A DNA stretch of 64,000 nt, taken from Bryobacteraceae bacterium (lineage in GTDB: Bacteria; Acidobacteriota; Terriglobia; Bryobacterales; Bryobacteraceae). Under the pieces are notes generated by a model, which saw only the letters and a program-made list of their open reading frames with translations, did not search any database and was not told the origin of the DNA. Of the stretch, positions 55,330 to 61,639 are shown piece after piece (within the stretch, counting starts at the first letter, position 1; each line of letters begins with the position of its first letter). Made by a program: the position numbers and the translations under genes. The stretch covers positions 2,790,001-2,854,000 of the forward strand of contig BPGE01000001.1 in the NCBI GenBank assembly GCA_026002875.1, in the 5' to 3' direction.

Positions 55330-55410
55330 GCGCTTCGGCCGCCCGCGTGCGCCTTCCGTGCATTGGGCGGCTCCCCGAAGGAACAGTATCCGGCAGGAGG
55401 TATCCAGGCC

Positions 55411-55875
55411 ATGAAAGCGGTTCTGTGCGTGCTGGCTCTCTTCCCGCTGCTCGCTTCCGCCCAGACGCAGCCGGCCGCGCGCGATCTGAGTGCGGTCTCG
55501 CACGAGATGCTGGCTGCGATCCAGACCGTCAAGAACCACTCGGCCAGTCTTCTCAAGGAACTGGAGAAGAAGGAACCCGACCGCCAGGTTGTGCAGGCCC
55601 TGTCCACGGAGGCCGTGGCGCAGGTCAAACAGCTCCGCAAGCTGATCGAAGAGCTGGACACGTTTTACGAGAAGATGCCCGAGGCGCAGCAGAGCGCCTT
55701 GCGCCGCTCGTGGTCTGTTGCCATGATCCTCAACGGCTGCATGGAGTCGGCCGTGGACGCCCTCGTGGAGAACTCGCGCGACGTGTGGAGCGAGGTTCGC
55801 ACGAGCGCCGAGTGCGCCCAGAGACGCGCCGACCAGCTTGAGGAAGTTCTCGCGCCCTTCCGGCGCAGCCGCTGA
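55411..55875 (+). CDS. Small exported helical protein
   Basis: This 154-residue protein has a signal peptide (AVLCVLALFPLLASAQ) and an almost entirely helical, charged body, with segments such as KNHSASLLKELEKKE and KQLRKLIEELDTFYEKM. AGGAGG is a good ribosome-binding site. Two more proteins of the same size, topology and export status lie downstream (56012 and 57795); similarity to those two is weak but the layout matches. No domain is recognised. Confidence 0.75.
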   Translation: MKAVLCVLALFPLLASAQTQPAARDLSAVSHEMLAAIQTVKNHSASLLKELEKKEPDRQVVQALSTEAVAQVKQLRKLIEELDTFYEKMPEAQQSALRRSWSVAMILNGCMESAVDALVENSRDVWSEVRTSAECAQRRADQLEEVLAPFRRSR

Positions 55876-56011
55876 GCGCGTCCGAACCGTGAAACCGGTT
55901 CTGCCTCTCATGCATCATTCCTGATGCGTGGCGGCCGCAGCCGCCACCGCCCGGGCGGCCGTTCCGGCGCGCCTGATGGAATCCCAGATTCAGCTTGAAG
56001 GAGGAACTGCG

Positions 56012-56476
56012 ATGCGAAGCTTGTGGAAACTCGTCCCTGCGATGCTTTGCGCCGCTGCTCTTCTGGCGGCCGATGCGGATTCCCAAGCCAGTCTCAGGGA
56101 CATGGCCCAGAAGCTGATCACCGAGTCCCGCACCACGCGCGAAATGGCCATGCAGATCGCCGAGCAGCTCCGCAAGACGGCCGACACGGCGGCTGTGCGC
56201 GACCAGATTCCCGTCCTCGAACAGCACGCCGCTTCGATTCGCAACCTGATCCAGGAGCTCGAATCGAAGGGTTCGGGGCTGACAGCCCGGCAGCGTCAGC
56301 AGCTTGAGACGGCGCGCAAGGTGGCGGAGATTCTCAATGTGTTCATCGAGACCAAGAAGCAGATGCTGGCCTCCGTCACCTCCCCGCGCGATCGTGACAC
56401 GGTGCGCTACCAGGCGATCGGCGTGGCGCAGCGCGCGGAGATCATCGAGAAGACGATCAGCAAACTGGGCCTCTGA
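56012..56476 (+). CDS. Small exported helical protein, paralogue A
   Basis: This 154-residue protein has a signal peptide ending LLAADA and a helical body. Its pattern (RDMAQKLITESRTTRE, VLEQHAASIRNLIQELES, TARQRQQLETARKVAE) matches the 57795 protein position by position, so they are paralogues. GAAGGAGG is an excellent ribosome-binding site, and the start is fixed by it. No catalytic residues or Cys are conserved; a structural or binding role in the envelope is possible. Confidence 0.8.
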   Translation: MRSLWKLVPAMLCAAALLAADADSQASLRDMAQKLITESRTTREMAMQIAEQLRKTADTAAVRDQIPVLEQHAASIRNLIQELESKGSGLTARQRQQLETARKVAEILNVFIETKKQMLASVTSPRDRDTVRYQAIGVAQRAEIIEKTISKLGL

Positions 56477-56834
56477 GCCGCTCTGCTTTCATCTCAGCCG
56501 CTGCAGCATCGGATCCGGCTCGCCCGGCGCCCGCTGCTGCGGAATTGGAGCAGCCACAAACCGCCTTGCGCGGGCGGGCAGCGTGATTCCCTGCCGCCCA
56601 GGGGAGGATCGGGCAGCAGGCAGCCCGCTTCCGCCCGCGCCATGCAGAGCGTTCAGGACGATATCCAGGGCCCGTTGACTCTTTCTCTCTGATCAGGCGG
56701 AACAACATCCGGGGCTTCTCTTCCACGTCGTATTCCGGCTGGCGCCCGTTCGGTAGGATCTTCGGGTCGGCGCCGCCTGTTTCCAGATCCACTCCCCCGA
56801 GACAGGCCCCTTCCCTCTCCTGCGCTCTGCCCCC
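56477..56834. other. 358 bp without a supportable gene
   Basis: A minus-strand frame with GADPKILPNGRQPEYDVEEK has some protein character but degenerates into Arg/Ala-rich sequence and has no ribosome-binding site. Nothing else is visible. Confidence 0.45.
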
Positions 56835-57011
56835 TCAGAGCAGCCCCTCTTCCTCCAGCTCTTTTTCCAGCTCAGAAATCAGGTCGTCGTCCGGGAGAAT
56901 CAGATCTCCATCCCCGTCAACGAAGGTGTAAGGGTAACCGCAGCCTGGGCAACAGGGCTGCGTGTCGTTGTCGTCGTCGAACCAGTCGTGACAGTACGGG
57001 CAGCGTTCCAT
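56835..57011 (-). CDS. 58-residue zinc-ribbon protein with acidic tail
   Basis: The start ATG 57011 has AAGGA 9 nt upstream and the frame runs cleanly to TGA at 56835-56837. The N-terminal half has CPYC (C4, C7) and, near 20-24, CCPGCG, giving a four-cysteine zinc-ribbon-like site; several Asp follow. The C-terminal third is a highly acidic helix (LISELEKELEEEGLL). It is probably a small cytoplasmic zinc protein; the partner is unknown. It is on the opposite strand to its neighbours. Confidence 0.7.
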   Translation of the reverse strand: MERCPYCHDWFDDDNDTQPCCPGCGYPYTFVDGDGDLILPDDDLISELEKELEEEGLL

Positions 57012-57661
57012 CTTGTGATCCTTTGAGTTCGGTTCGGGCTACGCCCCCTCGGATATCGGCAGGATCGGAGGCTGGTTTCAGTCTTTCTCGCATTGCCCTT
57101 CCGCCTCCACTTCGAACCCGGCGCCGGGCGGCCGCGCTTCGCCCCCGTTGTTCGCGCCAGGTGACAGCCCGTCCTTCCACCCCGTGCACGTGCCGACGGC
57201 GATTCGCGACAGTTGAGAGCACGCAAAGCCGATCCGTTCGCACGGCCCCTCCTGATTCGCTCCCCGCGGTGCCGCGGCCACTCCCGGTTTCCATCATGAT
57301 TTCTGCACAGTTCCTGCTCGATGCAGATCCTTCTTGAACCGGCGCAACCGTCACTGGACAATCTGCGGCGTTGCCAGGCCATGCCTGCGGCCGCAATAAG
57401 CGGCCTGGGGGAAGAGCGGCGCTCCGGCATGACAGGCAGGACCGGCGGCCGCGAGGCGCGCCTCGTCGTGTTCCACCGGATGCAGAACTGACCGGCGCAC
57501 CCTCCCCGCCGGAAATTCGGGGAGAAGGGCTCTTCACGTTGCGGACTGCCGCACGCCGCCCCAAAGCGCCGCCGGTTGAATCGGGCGCTTCCGCAGGAGA
57601 TGGACGGCTCGGTGCGAAAAGCCCGTCATTCCGAATCTGAAGGCCGAAGGATTGGCGCTAA
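57012..57661. other. 650 bp without a supportable gene
   Basis: No credible reading frame or RNA was seen; the overlapping frames are Arg/Pro-rich shadows. The promoter of the next gene follows directly. Confidence 0.45.
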
Positions 57662-57703
57662 TTGTTAAAATCTATATACCTTCAAATATTTGTATACACA
57701 AAT
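57662..57703 (+). promoter_or_regulatory. AT-rich promoter with a palindromic operator-like site
   Basis: A local AT island stands out in this GC-rich sequence. TTGTTA (57662-57667) is a possible -35, with AATATT at 57685 or TATACA at 57693 as -10. ATTTGT and its complement ACAAAT flank ATAC at 57688-57703, overlapping the core, as a repressor site would. Confidence 0.45.
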
Positions 57704-57794
57704 GCTGCGGTCTCCGTCGAAAGGGGTGAGGGCGCTGCTGAAACACACTCAGCCGAAGGCGGCGGCCCCGCAAATCCAACCGGAGGGAAAGAAC

Positions 57795-58253
57795 ATGAAA
57801 CAGCTTCTGAGCATCGGAATCCTCGGCGCCCTGATGACGGGCGGCACCTTGATGGCGGCGGACGCGAACGCCGGGCGCGATGTCGCCCAGCGGCTGCTGA
57901 GCGAGTCGCGGGCGGCCAGGGAGCAAGCCTCGGCGGTTGCGCTCCAGCTGCGGCGGGGCAATGACCTGAGCGGTCTGGAAGATCGGACGGCAGCGCTGGA
58001 GCGCCACGCAGAAGCCATTCGGAGCCTGCTGGGCGAGCTGGAGGGCTCGGCTGTGCTGAACACGCGGCAGCAGGAGGCTCTGGCCACGGCCAGGACGACC
58101 GCCGAGGTGATGGGCATCATGCTCAACAACAAGAAGACGGTGCTCGATGCGGGCACGTCGAAGAGCGCGAGGGAGAACGCCCGTCAGTTCGCCAGGGCCG
58201 TGGAAACGCGAGCCCAGATGCTGGAGCGGCTGATTCTCCAGATGGGGCTGTAA
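57795..58253 (+). CDS. Small exported helical protein, paralogue B
   Basis: This 152-residue protein has a signal peptide (LSIGILGALMTGGTLMAA) and a helical body clearly homologous to the 56012 protein: RDVAQRLLSESRAARE, ALERHAEAIRSLLGELEG and NTRQQEALATARTTAE line up with its counterparts. GGAGGG precedes the ATG. It has its own AT-rich promoter and a strong terminator, so it is transcribed alone. Function is unknown. Confidence 0.8.
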   Translation: MKQLLSIGILGALMTGGTLMAADANAGRDVAQRLLSESRAAREQASAVALQLRRGNDLSGLEDRTAALERHAEAIRSLLGELEGSAVLNTRQQEALATARTTAEVMGIMLNNKKTVLDAGTSKSARENARQFARAVETRAQMLERLILQMGL

Positions 58254-58448: not shown

Positions 58449-58621
58449 TGGTGGAGGCGGCGGGAGTCGAACCCGCCTCCGAAATGGTTCTTCGAAGCGA
58501 GCCTACGTGCGTATCCGGCCTTTGCATCTCAACGCTGCGGCCCGGACCGGCGCGGCCTCGCAGCGTCCAGCCTGGAGGATCTCGGATCTCGGCCTCAGGC
58601 GGCGGCTTCGGTCCCGGCCTG
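58449..58621 (-). pseudogene. Partial duplicate of the tmRNA 3' half
   Basis: This 173-bp segment matches 59836-60008 with five mismatches and no gap. It contains the 3' CCA, the T-arm and the acceptor 3' strand but lacks the 5' part, the tag frame and the first pseudoknot. One change falls next to the T-stem (a C for G at 58477). It cannot form a complete tmRNA, so it is a non-functional remnant or an attachment-site copy. Confidence 0.85.
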
Positions 58622-58933
58622 TTTCGAGCAATGATACTGCCGGGAATCTACGTCCTTTTGCCGTCGGCTCGAGCTCTGTGCATGTGAATTTCAGGCCGTC
58701 GGGGCGAATGGCCGACTCTCCGCCTCCATCCGTCTCCGGATCCCGCACGGCCTGATGGGGAATCAGAGGGAGCTGGCAGCGACCCTGCCAGTCCTGCCGT
58801 GTCAGTTGACATGAAGCTGGCGCCTGTCGGGCGCAGGCGCCGGGATGCTCCCGCGAACCAATGTCCCGTTACTCAGGGGCGCAGCGGTCTCGGTCTCTCC
58901 GGGGCTGGCGGCGAGCTGGCGGCAAGCAGCGCA
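58622..58933. other. Gap of 312 bp between the tmRNA remnant and the CmcI-family gene
   Basis: No gene is supported. TTGACA occurs at 58806 but no matching -10 follows. The TATAAT before the next gene is at 58934. Confidence 0.4.
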
Positions 58934-58939
58934 TATAAT
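58934..58939 (+). promoter_or_regulatory. Consensus -10 box 9 nt before an ATG
   Basis: TATAAT lies 9 nt before ATG 58949, so the transcript should have a leader of only a few nucleotides. The -35 region is weak. Confidence 0.5.
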
Positions 58940-58948
58940 CTCTGAACG

Positions 58949-59740
58949 ATGAGCTCGAACAAGACTTTGAATAGACCGGGCCTGGCGCTCTCTCCGGCAG
59001 GTGCGCTGGCGTTGGGTTTCGGGGCTGGAGTGGCGCTGACCTTGGGCCTGTTGTCCTTACACCCGGTGGCCTTCGCTCGTCTCAAATTCCTGGAACGGTC
59101 TTTCACGCAGGGATTCCACTGGATCTACCACATCAACTGGTGGGGACGGACCATGGATAACACGTGGTGGCTGGGCGTGCGGACCATGCAGACGCCTCTG
59201 GACATGTGGGTGTTCCAGGAGATCATCTACGAGACCCGGCCGGACCTGATCATAGAGACGGGATCGCACCATGGCGGCGCCGCGCTCTATTACGCAACCG
59301 TGATGGATGCCTTGAACCACGGGAGAATCCTGACAATTGACATCAAGACCTATCCGAATCAACCGAAGCATCCCCGGATCACCTATCTGGTAGGATCCTC
59401 GACCGACGCCAGGATCGTCGAGAAGGTCAAAGGCTCTATTGTCCCCGGCGAACGCGTGATGGTGATTCTGGACTCGCTTCACAACAAGGAGCATGTGCTG
59501 GAAGAACTACGGCTCTACGGGCCACTGGTGACGAAGGGCAACTACCTGGTCGTGCAGGACACACACCTGAATGGGCATCCGGTCCGCGTGCCATTCAGCC
59601 CCGATCCCGGCCATGAAGGCCCAATGGAAGCCCTGTGGGAGTTTCTTCCGAAACATCCGGAGTTTTCGCAGGACCGTAGCCGGGAGAAGTTCGGGTCCAC
59701 TCATAACCCCGGAGGATGGTTGCGCCGGATACGGAACTGA
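58949..59740 (+). CDS. CmcI/cephalosporin-hydroxylase-family SAM-dependent protein
   Basis: This 263-residue protein has one N-terminal membrane segment (LALGFGAGVALTLGLLSL) and a Rossmann fold. Motifs seen are LIIETGSHHGGAALYYA (SAM site), ILTIDIKTYP, MVILDSLHNKEHVLEEL and LVVQDTHLNG, with THNPGGWLRR at the end. Members (PF04989) are methyltransferases or hydroxylases often linked to glycan or antibiotic modification. It lies between the two tmRNA copies. The GTP-like context is absent and no biosynthetic partner is adjacent. TATAAT is 9 nt upstream. Confidence 0.85.
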   Translation: MSSNKTLNRPGLALSPAGALALGFGAGVALTLGLLSLHPVAFARLKFLERSFTQGFHWIYHINWWGRTMDNTWWLGVRTMQTPLDMWVFQEIIYETRPDLIIETGSHHGGAALYYATVMDALNHGRILTIDIKTYPNQPKHPRITYLVGSSTDARIVEKVKGSIVPGERVMVILDSLHNKEHVLEELRLYGPLVTKGNYLVVQDTHLNGHPVRVPFSPDPGHEGPMEALWEFLPKHPEFSQDRSREKFGSTHNPGGWLRRIRN

Positions 59741-59835
59741 GATTCGGGCGAACCGAGGGCAGGAGGAAATGAGCCTGGGGACCGGATGGTCAAGGGCGTA
59801 TACAGAAACTGCCCACCGGGAATGACGGCAGGGAT

Positions 59836-60008
59836 TGGTGGAGGCGGCGGGAGTCGAACCCGCGTCCGAAATGGTTCTTCGAAGCGAGCCTACGTGCGTA
59901 TCCGGCCTTTGCATCTCAACGCTGCGGCCCGGACCGGCGCGGCCTCGCAGCGTCCAGCCTGGAGGATCTCGGATCTCGGCCTCAGGCGGCGGCCTCGACC
60001 CCAGCCTG
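59836..60008 (-). repeat. tmRNA 3' direct repeat, intact-gene copy
   Basis: This is the second copy of a 173-bp direct repeat (the first is 58449-58621, same orientation, 5 mismatches). It covers the 3' half of the tmRNA gene and its CCA end. Confidence 0.9.
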
Positions 60009-60186
60009 CGAAAATGACGCTTCCCGGCGGCCCGCAGGCCCGCCACCGTTCAGCGGCTGCCTAAAAATTAGGCAGCGTAGGCAAACTGCTGATTGGCAGT
60101 TTTGGTTTTCCGATCGTTTTACGGGAGCTCGGAACCCGGCACGCCTCACTTCGTCGATCCCATCCCGTCGAATCCGTTACGCCCCC
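59836..60186 (-). ncRNA. ssrA: Transfer-messenger RNA
   Basis: A 351-nt tmRNA that rescues stalled ribosomes. The 5' end (60186) starts GGGGGCGTAACGG followed by ATTCGAC, and the 3' end closes with TTCGACTCCCG, GCCTCC and an encoded CCA. The acceptor stem pairs GGGGGCG with CGCCTCC. The tag frame at 60097-60068 encodes ANQQFAYAA, resuming on GCC, and its TAA stop lies in the GCTGCCTAA/TTAGGCAGC stem. The tag is degraded by proteases that recognise AA-ending tails. TACACT at 60237-60232 may be the promoter -10, giving a leader of about 35 nt. Confidence 0.95.
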
Positions 60187-60501: not shown

Positions 60502-61029
60502 TCAGGCCTGCGGGGCTTCCAGCACCGCCGCCACGGCGTGCAGGGTCGCGGCGATGCGCACACTGGCCACAACAGCTTCTGGCGTCACACCCTTTTCGCG
60601 CACGACCGCTTCGTGCGACTTGATGCAGGCCTCGCAGCCGTTGATCGAAGACGCCGCCAGACAGGCCAGCTCGAAGTCCACCGGGTCGCCGCCGTGCATC
60701 CGGATGGCCTGCATGCGCAGCCGGGCCGGGATGTTGGCGTACTCGTCCTTCGACAGCATGTGCCGGAACCGGTAGTAGATGTTGTTCATCTCCATGATGG
60801 CGAACGCCGCCTTCGCCGATTCCAGCTGCTGCGGAGACAGCTTCTGCGAGGCCTCGGCCAGGATGGCGCGGCTCAGCGTTTCATTCCGGCAGGCCAGAGC
60901 GCAGGCCACAGCCGTGGTCCACGTCTGCTGCTCCGTCAGCTCCTGCTGGACCAGTACGTTCTGGAGATTCAGCTTCAAATCCTTCGCGTAGGCAGGCAGA
61001 GATTCGGCTATTTCTGTCAGATTCATCAT
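60502..61029 (-). CDS. ahpD: Alkyl hydroperoxide reductase AhpD-like (carboxymuconolactone decarboxylase family)
   Basis: This 175-residue protein has the redox CxxC motif in NGCEACIKSHE near residue 130, with the nearby His and Glu of the AhpD proton relay. It reduces AhpC through a lipoyl or thiol carrier. The start is the first of two ATGs, with CGGAG 7 nt upstream. It is the last gene in the perR-ahpC-ahpD group, 73 bp after ahpC. Confidence 0.92.
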   Translation of the reverse strand: MMNLTEIAESLPAYAKDLKLNLQNVLVQQELTEQQTWTTAVACALACRNETLSRAILAEASQKLSPQQLESAKAAFAIMEMNNIYYRFRHMLSKDEYANIPARLRMQAIRMHGGDPVDFELACLAASSINGCEACIKSHEAVVREKGVTPEAVVASVRIAATLHAVAAVLEAPQA

Positions 61030-61102
61030 TCTTTCTCCGGAGTATTTCAGGGAAGGAAGCGGCGGCGCGCCCTGCGAGGGCCCGCCGCCGAGGCAGGCAG
61101 GA

Positions 61103-61639
61103 TCAGATGTGGATCGTTTCCTGGCCCTTCTGCCAGTTGCAGGGGCACAGTTCGTCAGTCTGCAGGGCGTCGAGCACGCGCAGCACTTCATCCACGTTGC
61201 GGCCGACGTTCAGGTCGGTCACCATCACGAAGCGGATGATGTTGTCCGGGTCCACGATGTAGGTGGCCCGCTGCGCCACGCCGGCGGCGGGATCCAGAAT
61301 GCCCAGCGCGGAGGTCAGCTCCCGCTTGATGTCAGCCAGCATCGGGAACGGCAGGTCCTTCAGGTCCGCGTGGTGCTGCCGCCACGCCAGATGGACGAAC
61401 TCGCTGTCCGTGCTGCAGCCCAGCACCTGCGCGTCGCGGTCCTGGAACTGCTTGTTCAGCTTGGCGAAGCCGACGATCTCGGTCGGGCAGACGAACGTGA
61501 AGTCCTTCGGCCAGAAGAAAATCACCTTCCACTTGCCCTTGTACGTGTCCAGGGAGATATCGGTGAACGCCTTCTTCAGGTCCGTGTCCACCGTCGCTTT
61601 CAGGTTGAAATCCGGAAATTTCTGTCCGACTCCAAGCAT
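61103..61639 (-). CDS. ahpC: Peroxiredoxin AhpC
   Basis: This 178-residue 2-Cys peroxiredoxin detoxifies hydroperoxides. The peroxidatic Cys is in FTFVCPTEI near residue 51 and the C-terminal pair CPCNW contains the resolving Cys, as in the mycobacterial AhpC type that pairs with AhpD. The gene starts 25 bp after perR, so the PerR box upstream of perR controls it too. Confidence 0.95.
   Translation of the reverse strand: MLGVGQKFPDFNLKATVDTDLKKAFTDISLDTYKGKWKVIFFWPKDFTFVCPTEIVGFAKLNKQFQDRDAQVLGCSTDSEFVHLAWRQHHADLKDLPFPMLADIKRELTSALGILDPAAGVAQRATYIVDPDNIIRFVMVTDLNVGRNVDEVLRVLDALQTDELCPCNWQKGQETIHI

Follow-up and report, generated by a model that had tools for sequence, protein, structure and literature searches.

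Why does the 3' half of a tmRNA gene occur a second time just behind the gene itself? The question is raised by a stretch of 64,000 nucleotides from a Bryobacteraceae bacterium (contig BPGE01000001.1, positions 2,790,001 to 2,854,000), hereafter the window, whose tmRNA gene, ssrA, lies on the minus strand at 59836-60186. The gene is intact and encodes the tag ANQQFAYAA (ARAGORN; Rfam RF00023, 167.1 bits), and its end recurs 1387 bp downstream. A first-pass annotation of the window had described a 173-bp repeat of the ssrA 3' half, in the same orientation and without gaps, with five mismatches, on either side of a CmcI-family gene. The direct repeat is confirmed, and its coordinates were reproduced exactly. 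Comparison with relatives shows that it results from an insertion at ssrA in this lineage and not from a tandem duplication.

The two arms of the repeat, 59836-60008 within ssrA and 58449-58621 downstream of it, are both on the minus strand and align over 173 nt. Their mismatches fall at positions 184, 188, 189, 193 and 323 in tmRNA numbering (tm). Four of the five are in the outer 15 nt, and the chance of finding at least four there is 1.8e-4. This clustering defines a clean block of 158 nt with a single mismatch, tm 194-351, which corresponds to 59836-59993 in the gene and 58449-58606 in the copy. Both copies stop exactly at CCA and the next base differs between them. At tm 323, where the copies differ, all four genus mates agree with the functional gene. 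A genome-wide DNA search found these two ssrA ends only, the next best match having an E value of 0.009. For the diverged edge of the displaced copy, no ssrA among the 136 family loci described below matched better than the gene's own.

The state before the insertion is preserved in the genus mate G004. When our ssrA was joined directly to the DNA behind the copy, the joined sequence aligned collinearly with G004, 894 of 1145 columns being identical, with no gap longer than 7 nt in either row. In the downstream part, 556 of 794 positions were identical (70%) in the joined form as compared with 321 of 758 (42%) in the unjoined form. The outer side of the copy thus meets the ancestral flank, and the 1387 bp that were added consist of 1214 bp of new DNA (58622-59835) and one extra ssrA end. 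G003 and G004 both have a single ssrA with AhpC/AhpD genes on one side and a peptidase gene and small-protein genes on the other. The inserted 1214 bp were found in none of the four genus mates by a DNA search that scored the best six candidates per genome, and neither was their gene. In G001 and G002 the ssrA gene has different surroundings (L031, L032), with no AhpC/AhpD genes in the fetched 18 kb, so these two genomes show the absence of the insert only. The 3' end of our ssrA is 89-94% identical to those of the genus mates over the 173 nt. The first-pass annotation had proposed just such a check, asking whether an empty site keeps a single ssrA 3' end, and G004 does. The outcome it named as refutation, presence of the block with both its copies in every relative, is not what the genus mates show. 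Its view of ssrA as the insertion site is borne out by the empty site together with the intact gene and its displaced same-strand 3' fragment.

The insert has a GC content of 0.602, as compared with 0.652 (standard deviation 0.021) for 1214-bp stretches of the window. The CmcI-family gene that had been reported between the copies is real, and is the only gene of a known family there. It lies on the plus strand at 58949-59740, convergent with ssrA, encodes 263 amino acids at a GC content of 0.586, and belongs to the CmcI / rhamnosyl O-methyltransferase family by its match to PF04989 (202.5 bits against a cut-off of 23.2, E 8e-60). Its score with the rhamnosyl O-methyltransferase equivalog NF045824, 146.1 bits, is below the 400-bit cut-off. 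The product is likely a SAM-dependent O-methyltransferase, and a hydrophobic N-terminal stretch is seen by eye. The insert contains no other long frame; transfer genes were not searched for by profile. The gene had also been credited with its own promoter, which we could not substantiate. A perfect -10 hexamer, TATAAT, can be read on the plus strand at 58934-58939, 9 nt before the ATG, but the scan accepts no -35 box for it and did not call it as a promoter; the only promoter-like site in the consensus scan, 59199-59226, lies within the gene. Relatives of the protein from named organisms were found neither in genome or viral contigs by pattern scan nor among solved structures, and it had no match in the anti-phage library. 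Homologues are present in 14 of 60 other relatives, the top-scoring one being 54% identical (G030). The G030 gene (L207:9699-10628) is convergent with a tRNA-Ala gene about 140 nt from the 3' end of the latter, and no repeat of the tRNA-Ala end was found on the strand of the tRNA at that locus.

Then, which enzyme could have placed this DNA at ssrA? No integrase or integrase remnant is recognisable in the insert, in searches that did not cover serine recombinases. Permissive tblastn with integrases linked to ssrA in relatives returned nothing better than E 0.086. Short tblastx matches of the insert to eight integrase loci of the same genome (14-36 aa, E 8.9e-4 to 0.003) were taken as chance because their coordinates fall beyond the integrase domain in L072 and L074 and on the strand opposite to it in L079. 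The first-pass annotation had likewise seen no integrase and had suggested a search beyond the window; there, eight PF00589 genes are present in the genome, and about 430 kb separates ssrA from the closest of them. Three of the genome's own integrase genes (L211, L212 and L214) stand within about 1 kb of tRNA-Arg, tRNA-Ser and tRNA-Gly genes, respectively, and the plus strand of these loci showed no repeat of the tRNA ends concerned.

In relatives, 11 of the 136 family loci have tyrosine integrases or pieces of them immediately behind ssrA, and both of the ssrA-linked integrases tested by profile matched PF00589. In G017 an integrase gene starts 110 nt downstream of ssrA; about 18.5 kb away, 19 nt of the ssrA end are repeated and close an island of 18.5 kb. 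A pattern scan with four ssrA-linked integrases as queries returned eight loci from named genomes, all of Acidobacteriota, at least four of which were the queries' own records. The integrase is next to ssrA in five of the eight and next to a tRNA gene (Lys, Ser) in two, and in the remaining one a tRNA gene is about 7 kb off. Two assemblies carry two ssrA genes on separate contigs, G017 (L096/L097) and G122 (L086/L087), by contamination or in reality.

We looked for the same arrangement across the family, where 202 of 237 genomes had a match to the ssrA end. From 136 of them we fetched 138 loci, mostly those with listed coordinates and enough sequence downstream; of the 19 other genomes with at least two matches, 17 are represented. 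Before counting we set aside G104 (ssrA cut by the contig end) and G246 (tmRNA call outside the locus), which left 136 loci of 134 genomes, with at least 1 kb of downstream sequence in 123, at least 2 kb in 115 and at least 8 kb in 81. A same-strand copy of the ssrA end was found 436-1784 bp downstream in 10 of the 136 loci, the window included; given how the loci were selected, this fraction should not be read as an unbiased rate. No copy was found in antisense, upstream or shuffled controls. A looser setting of 16 nt with one mismatch gave nine sense matches and one in the reversed-sequence control, and a setting of 14 exact nt gave ten sense matches and none in the controls; the latter added two copies outside the list of ten, at 939 bp in G208 and at 5945 bp in G214. 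The excluded G104 carries an eleventh insert, of 657 bp, whose HicB- and HicA-like frames match those at ssrA in G161, a member of another genus, with 90% and 89% identity, the HicA match being split over two frames in G161.

Among the eleven inserts, seven blocks are 19-25 nt long and span the T arm through the 3' end, and the others measure about 38 nt (G225), 60 nt (G227), 108 nt (G104) and 158 nt (window). The block ends exactly at CCA in six of the eleven and within 4 nt of it in the other five. The copies in G225 and G227 end 3 nt before CCA, and in G219 the two ends differ in their last bases. At the G219 locus (L143) ssrA ends in CTCCAC followed by T's and the distal copy reads CTCCACCA, a picture that an incoming end with an incomplete encoded CCA would give. 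Among the cargo tested, Pfam matches above cut-off were obtained for HicA (G007), AbiEii (G168), GIY-YIG (G197), HNH (G227) and FRG (G190). The HicB-like protein of G241 matched two HicB-like models, both below cut-off, and an AbiEi-like frame in G168 had no Pfam match.

Certain genes recur behind ssrA. Within 2 kb, 13 of 115 loci have a GIY-YIG gene and 8 have one of HicB-like type. Control tblastn searches with four members show both to be far rarer at greater distance: in the 0-2 kb interval GIY-YIG was detected in 14 and HicB in 10 of 115 loci, in the 3-5 kb interval in 0 and 1 of 99, respectively, and in the 5-7 kb interval neither was detected in any of 90. Taking together the repeat-bounded inserts (10), integrases or their remnants, and GIY-YIG or HicB genes, 34 of the 115 loci with at least 2 kb downstream carry one or another of them; insert status is shown by a repeat in 10 of the 34. 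Variable genes at ssrA are thus common in the family, and the arrangement in the window is less unusual for a tmRNA locus than the first-pass annotation supposed. The GIY-YIG-like gene (for example in L085, L103 and L161) starts at most 190 nt behind ssrA in many genera, one member having been tested against Pfam, and several of these loci have a common leader of about 80 nt directly behind CCA. HicB-like frames, with mechanically assigned starts, begin 6-13 nt behind the CCA of ssrA in five genomes of different genera (L083, L100, L118, L137, L187), and at this distance they may be read from the ssrA promoter.

Two pairwise comparisons are compatible, at the level of sequence, with an exchange of cargo at ssrA. 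G007 and G259, from two genera, have HicBA-like genes behind ssrA that are 88% identical over 399 bp, whereas the ssrA genes themselves are 78% identical. No further downstream DNA match was found between the two; the upstream comparison is limited to about 50 bp, and the repeat is present in G007 only. In G225 and G227, ssrA is 99% identical and the flank behind the distal copy 91% identical, and the cargo is different; part of the G227 cargo also stands behind ssrA in G226, without a repeat. These comparisons, and the HicB match between G104 and G161, make the cargo linked to ssrA look mobile.

How, then, did the DNA in the window arrive? The reading that we favour, and to which we give slightly better than an even chance, is that a small element with no integrase of its own was inserted site-specifically inside ssrA by an integrase acting in trans. 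Such an element would enter the chromosome by recombination within ssrA and bring a replacement 3' half, so that the tmRNA gene stays whole, and the displaced original half would mark the far end, at 58449-58621. That the copy is the displaced original end, and the present ssrA the one completed by the element, is indicated by the junction of the copy's outer side with the ancestral flank. The diverged 15 nt at the inner edge of the copy would be the element's own arm. The crossover would lie inside the 158-nt block, probably near its left edge at about tm 194, since homology fades just outside the block. With no recognisable recombinase in the element, the enzyme would be supplied in trans, and would likely be a tyrosine integrase of the kind found behind ssrA in relatives. 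What the data show directly is the repeat with its exact CCA ends, the empty site, the low-GC DNA that was not found in the genus mates, the lack of a recognisable integrase, and, in relatives, further repeat-bounded inserts and integrase genes at ssrA. We infer here that an integrase is the catalyst, where the crossover lies, that the DNA came as a small unit and not as a larger island that later shrank, and what the gene does. The first-pass annotation recognised the ssrA 3' end as an integration site, which stands, and hesitated because att copies usually measure tens of bp; this is no objection, as PMC10111431 reports blocks of identity as long as about 250 bp for integrases that cut deep within their target gene.

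Several observations weigh against this reading. The ssrA half carried by the element would differ from the displaced one at only 1 of 158 nt, which requires that the donor was very recent or of the same species, or that gene conversion followed. The block is far longer than the 19-25 nt seen in seven of the ten other inserts and would call for an integrase other than the T-arm type. This genome yielded no integrase closely similar to those linked to ssrA, serine recombinases again lying outside the search, and its own eight PF00589 genes resemble those of relatives weakly. Lastly, among five integrase loci checked, a distal copy of the ssrA end was found in one, and not in the stretch examined of G119, G130, G012 or G209.

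The main rival, which we regard as appreciably less probable though still a serious candidate, is a decayed island: an integrase-bearing island would have entered at ssrA in the same way, and an internal deletion would have left one gene and the two ends. Integrase-bearing islands do occur at ssrA in relatives, with the 18.5-kb island as the measured case, and short integrase pieces behind ssrA in G012, G088 and G209 (frames of 83-122 aa) suggest that decay takes place there. The insert in the window, however, contains no recognised remnant of an integrase. Deletion should also produce a spread of sizes, whereas all eleven inserts measure 0.4-1.8 kb even though 81 of the 136 loci offer at least 8 kb downstream, and several consist of one compact gene or a toxin-antitoxin-like pair; the G214 copy at 5945 bp, from the 14-nt setting, leaves room for an intermediate size. 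Of the three origins named in the first-pass annotation, minimal cassette, decayed island and tandem duplication, the first two remain, and they have in common what the alignments establish, an insertion at ssrA that is absent from the four genus mates.

A homologous single crossover of the Campbell type, in which RecA would integrate a circle carrying an ssrA 3' half and the CmcI gene and so leave a direct repeat without any integrase, seems improbable to us. The block in the window is long and nearly identical within the species, which speaks for this route, but nothing in it would set the end of the repeat at CCA, where it falls exactly in the window and within 4 nt in all eleven inserts. 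Blocks of 19-25 nt would, moreover, be too short for homologous crossover of this type. A plain tandem duplication of the ssrA end followed by drift could account for two same-strand copies near each other, but the 1214 bp between them are not duplicated DNA and are missing from the empty site in G004, an alignment that rules the duplication out and leaves it next to no probability.

Taken together with the family survey, the favoured insertion by an integrase in trans leads to a broader idea that we put forward tentatively, as a possibility we do not ourselves hold to be probable. The ssrA gene of this family may be a landing site for exchangeable cassettes that hold one gene or a toxin-antitoxin pair, terminate in a copy of the ssrA 3' end and depend on integrases in trans for their movement, much like an integron platform; the CmcI insert would be one of them, entered through an internal crossover. 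If inserts do pass between genera, ssrA would serve as a platform for cassettes that does not belong to integrons, and toxin-antitoxin-like and nuclease genes would make up its stock. The idea is easily testable, as the ssrA site is usually single-copy and the empty site is known.

On the ssrA side of the insertion lies a conserved AhpD-like gene on the minus strand (60502-61191, mechanical start) with a CMD domain (PF02627). On the far side, the gene at 57690-58253 (plus strand, 187 aa, no Pfam match) corresponds to the gene that directly follows ssrA at the empty site of G004 (L034; tblastn and blastn). This close counterpart is in G004 and not in the G003 stretch. Within 55363-58253 there are three adjacent small-protein genes, and those at 55928 and 57690 are related to each other.

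How does the insert compare with known systems? The modules bounded by pdif sites and the cassettes of integrons are likewise small and lack a recombinase of their own, with a single gene or a toxin-antitoxin pair as content; the difference is that the ends here are pieces of ssrA. With the islands in tRNA and tmRNA genes collected by Islander (PMC4383910), the window shares a regenerated target gene and a displaced 3' fragment downstream in the same orientation. It also has an uninterrupted site in a relative (G004, with the synteny of G003), and it lacks a recognisable integrase gene of its own, serine recombinases not having been searched. Islander discards candidates shorter than 2 kb or without an integrase, so inserts like this one would not be listed there. 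More generally, any island finder that, like Islander, requires both an integrase and a certain length cannot list inserts of this size.

Cis-mobilizable elements (CIMEs), as outlined in PMC3146451, share with the insert two att-like ends, the absence of a recognisable recombinase, and integrase-bearing elements at the same gene in relatives. The insert has att-like ends, no recognised integration genes and no other long frame, within the profile limits given above. Potential helpers, the integrases or integrase pieces at ssrA, are found in 11 of 136 family loci and not in this genome, in which no neighbouring helper element was found by searches that left out serine recombinases; the only helper-type end measured is 19 nt as compared with 158 nt here. 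At the level of titles and the beginnings of abstracts, nothing comparable was evident in the literature except PMC3146451, and the sole paper combining Acidobacteria, tmRNA, genomic island and integrase was unrelated. PMC3146451 describes integrase-less islands at ssrA in Dehalococcoides, which its authors suggest as possible cis-mobilizable elements. The T loop, the site of the crossover inferred there, is also where the majority of the short blocks of the family inserts start. The Dehalococcoides system uses a serine recombinase and a 20-bp repeat, and many of its islands carry reductive dehalogenase genes, whereas the window has a repeat of 158-173 nt around a 1.2-kb insert with one methyltransferase-like gene, and the ssrA integrases of its relatives are tyrosine integrases (PF00589). 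These integrase-less islands are the closest known counterpart, of which the insert in the window, by its size, its single gene and its long block, is a variant.
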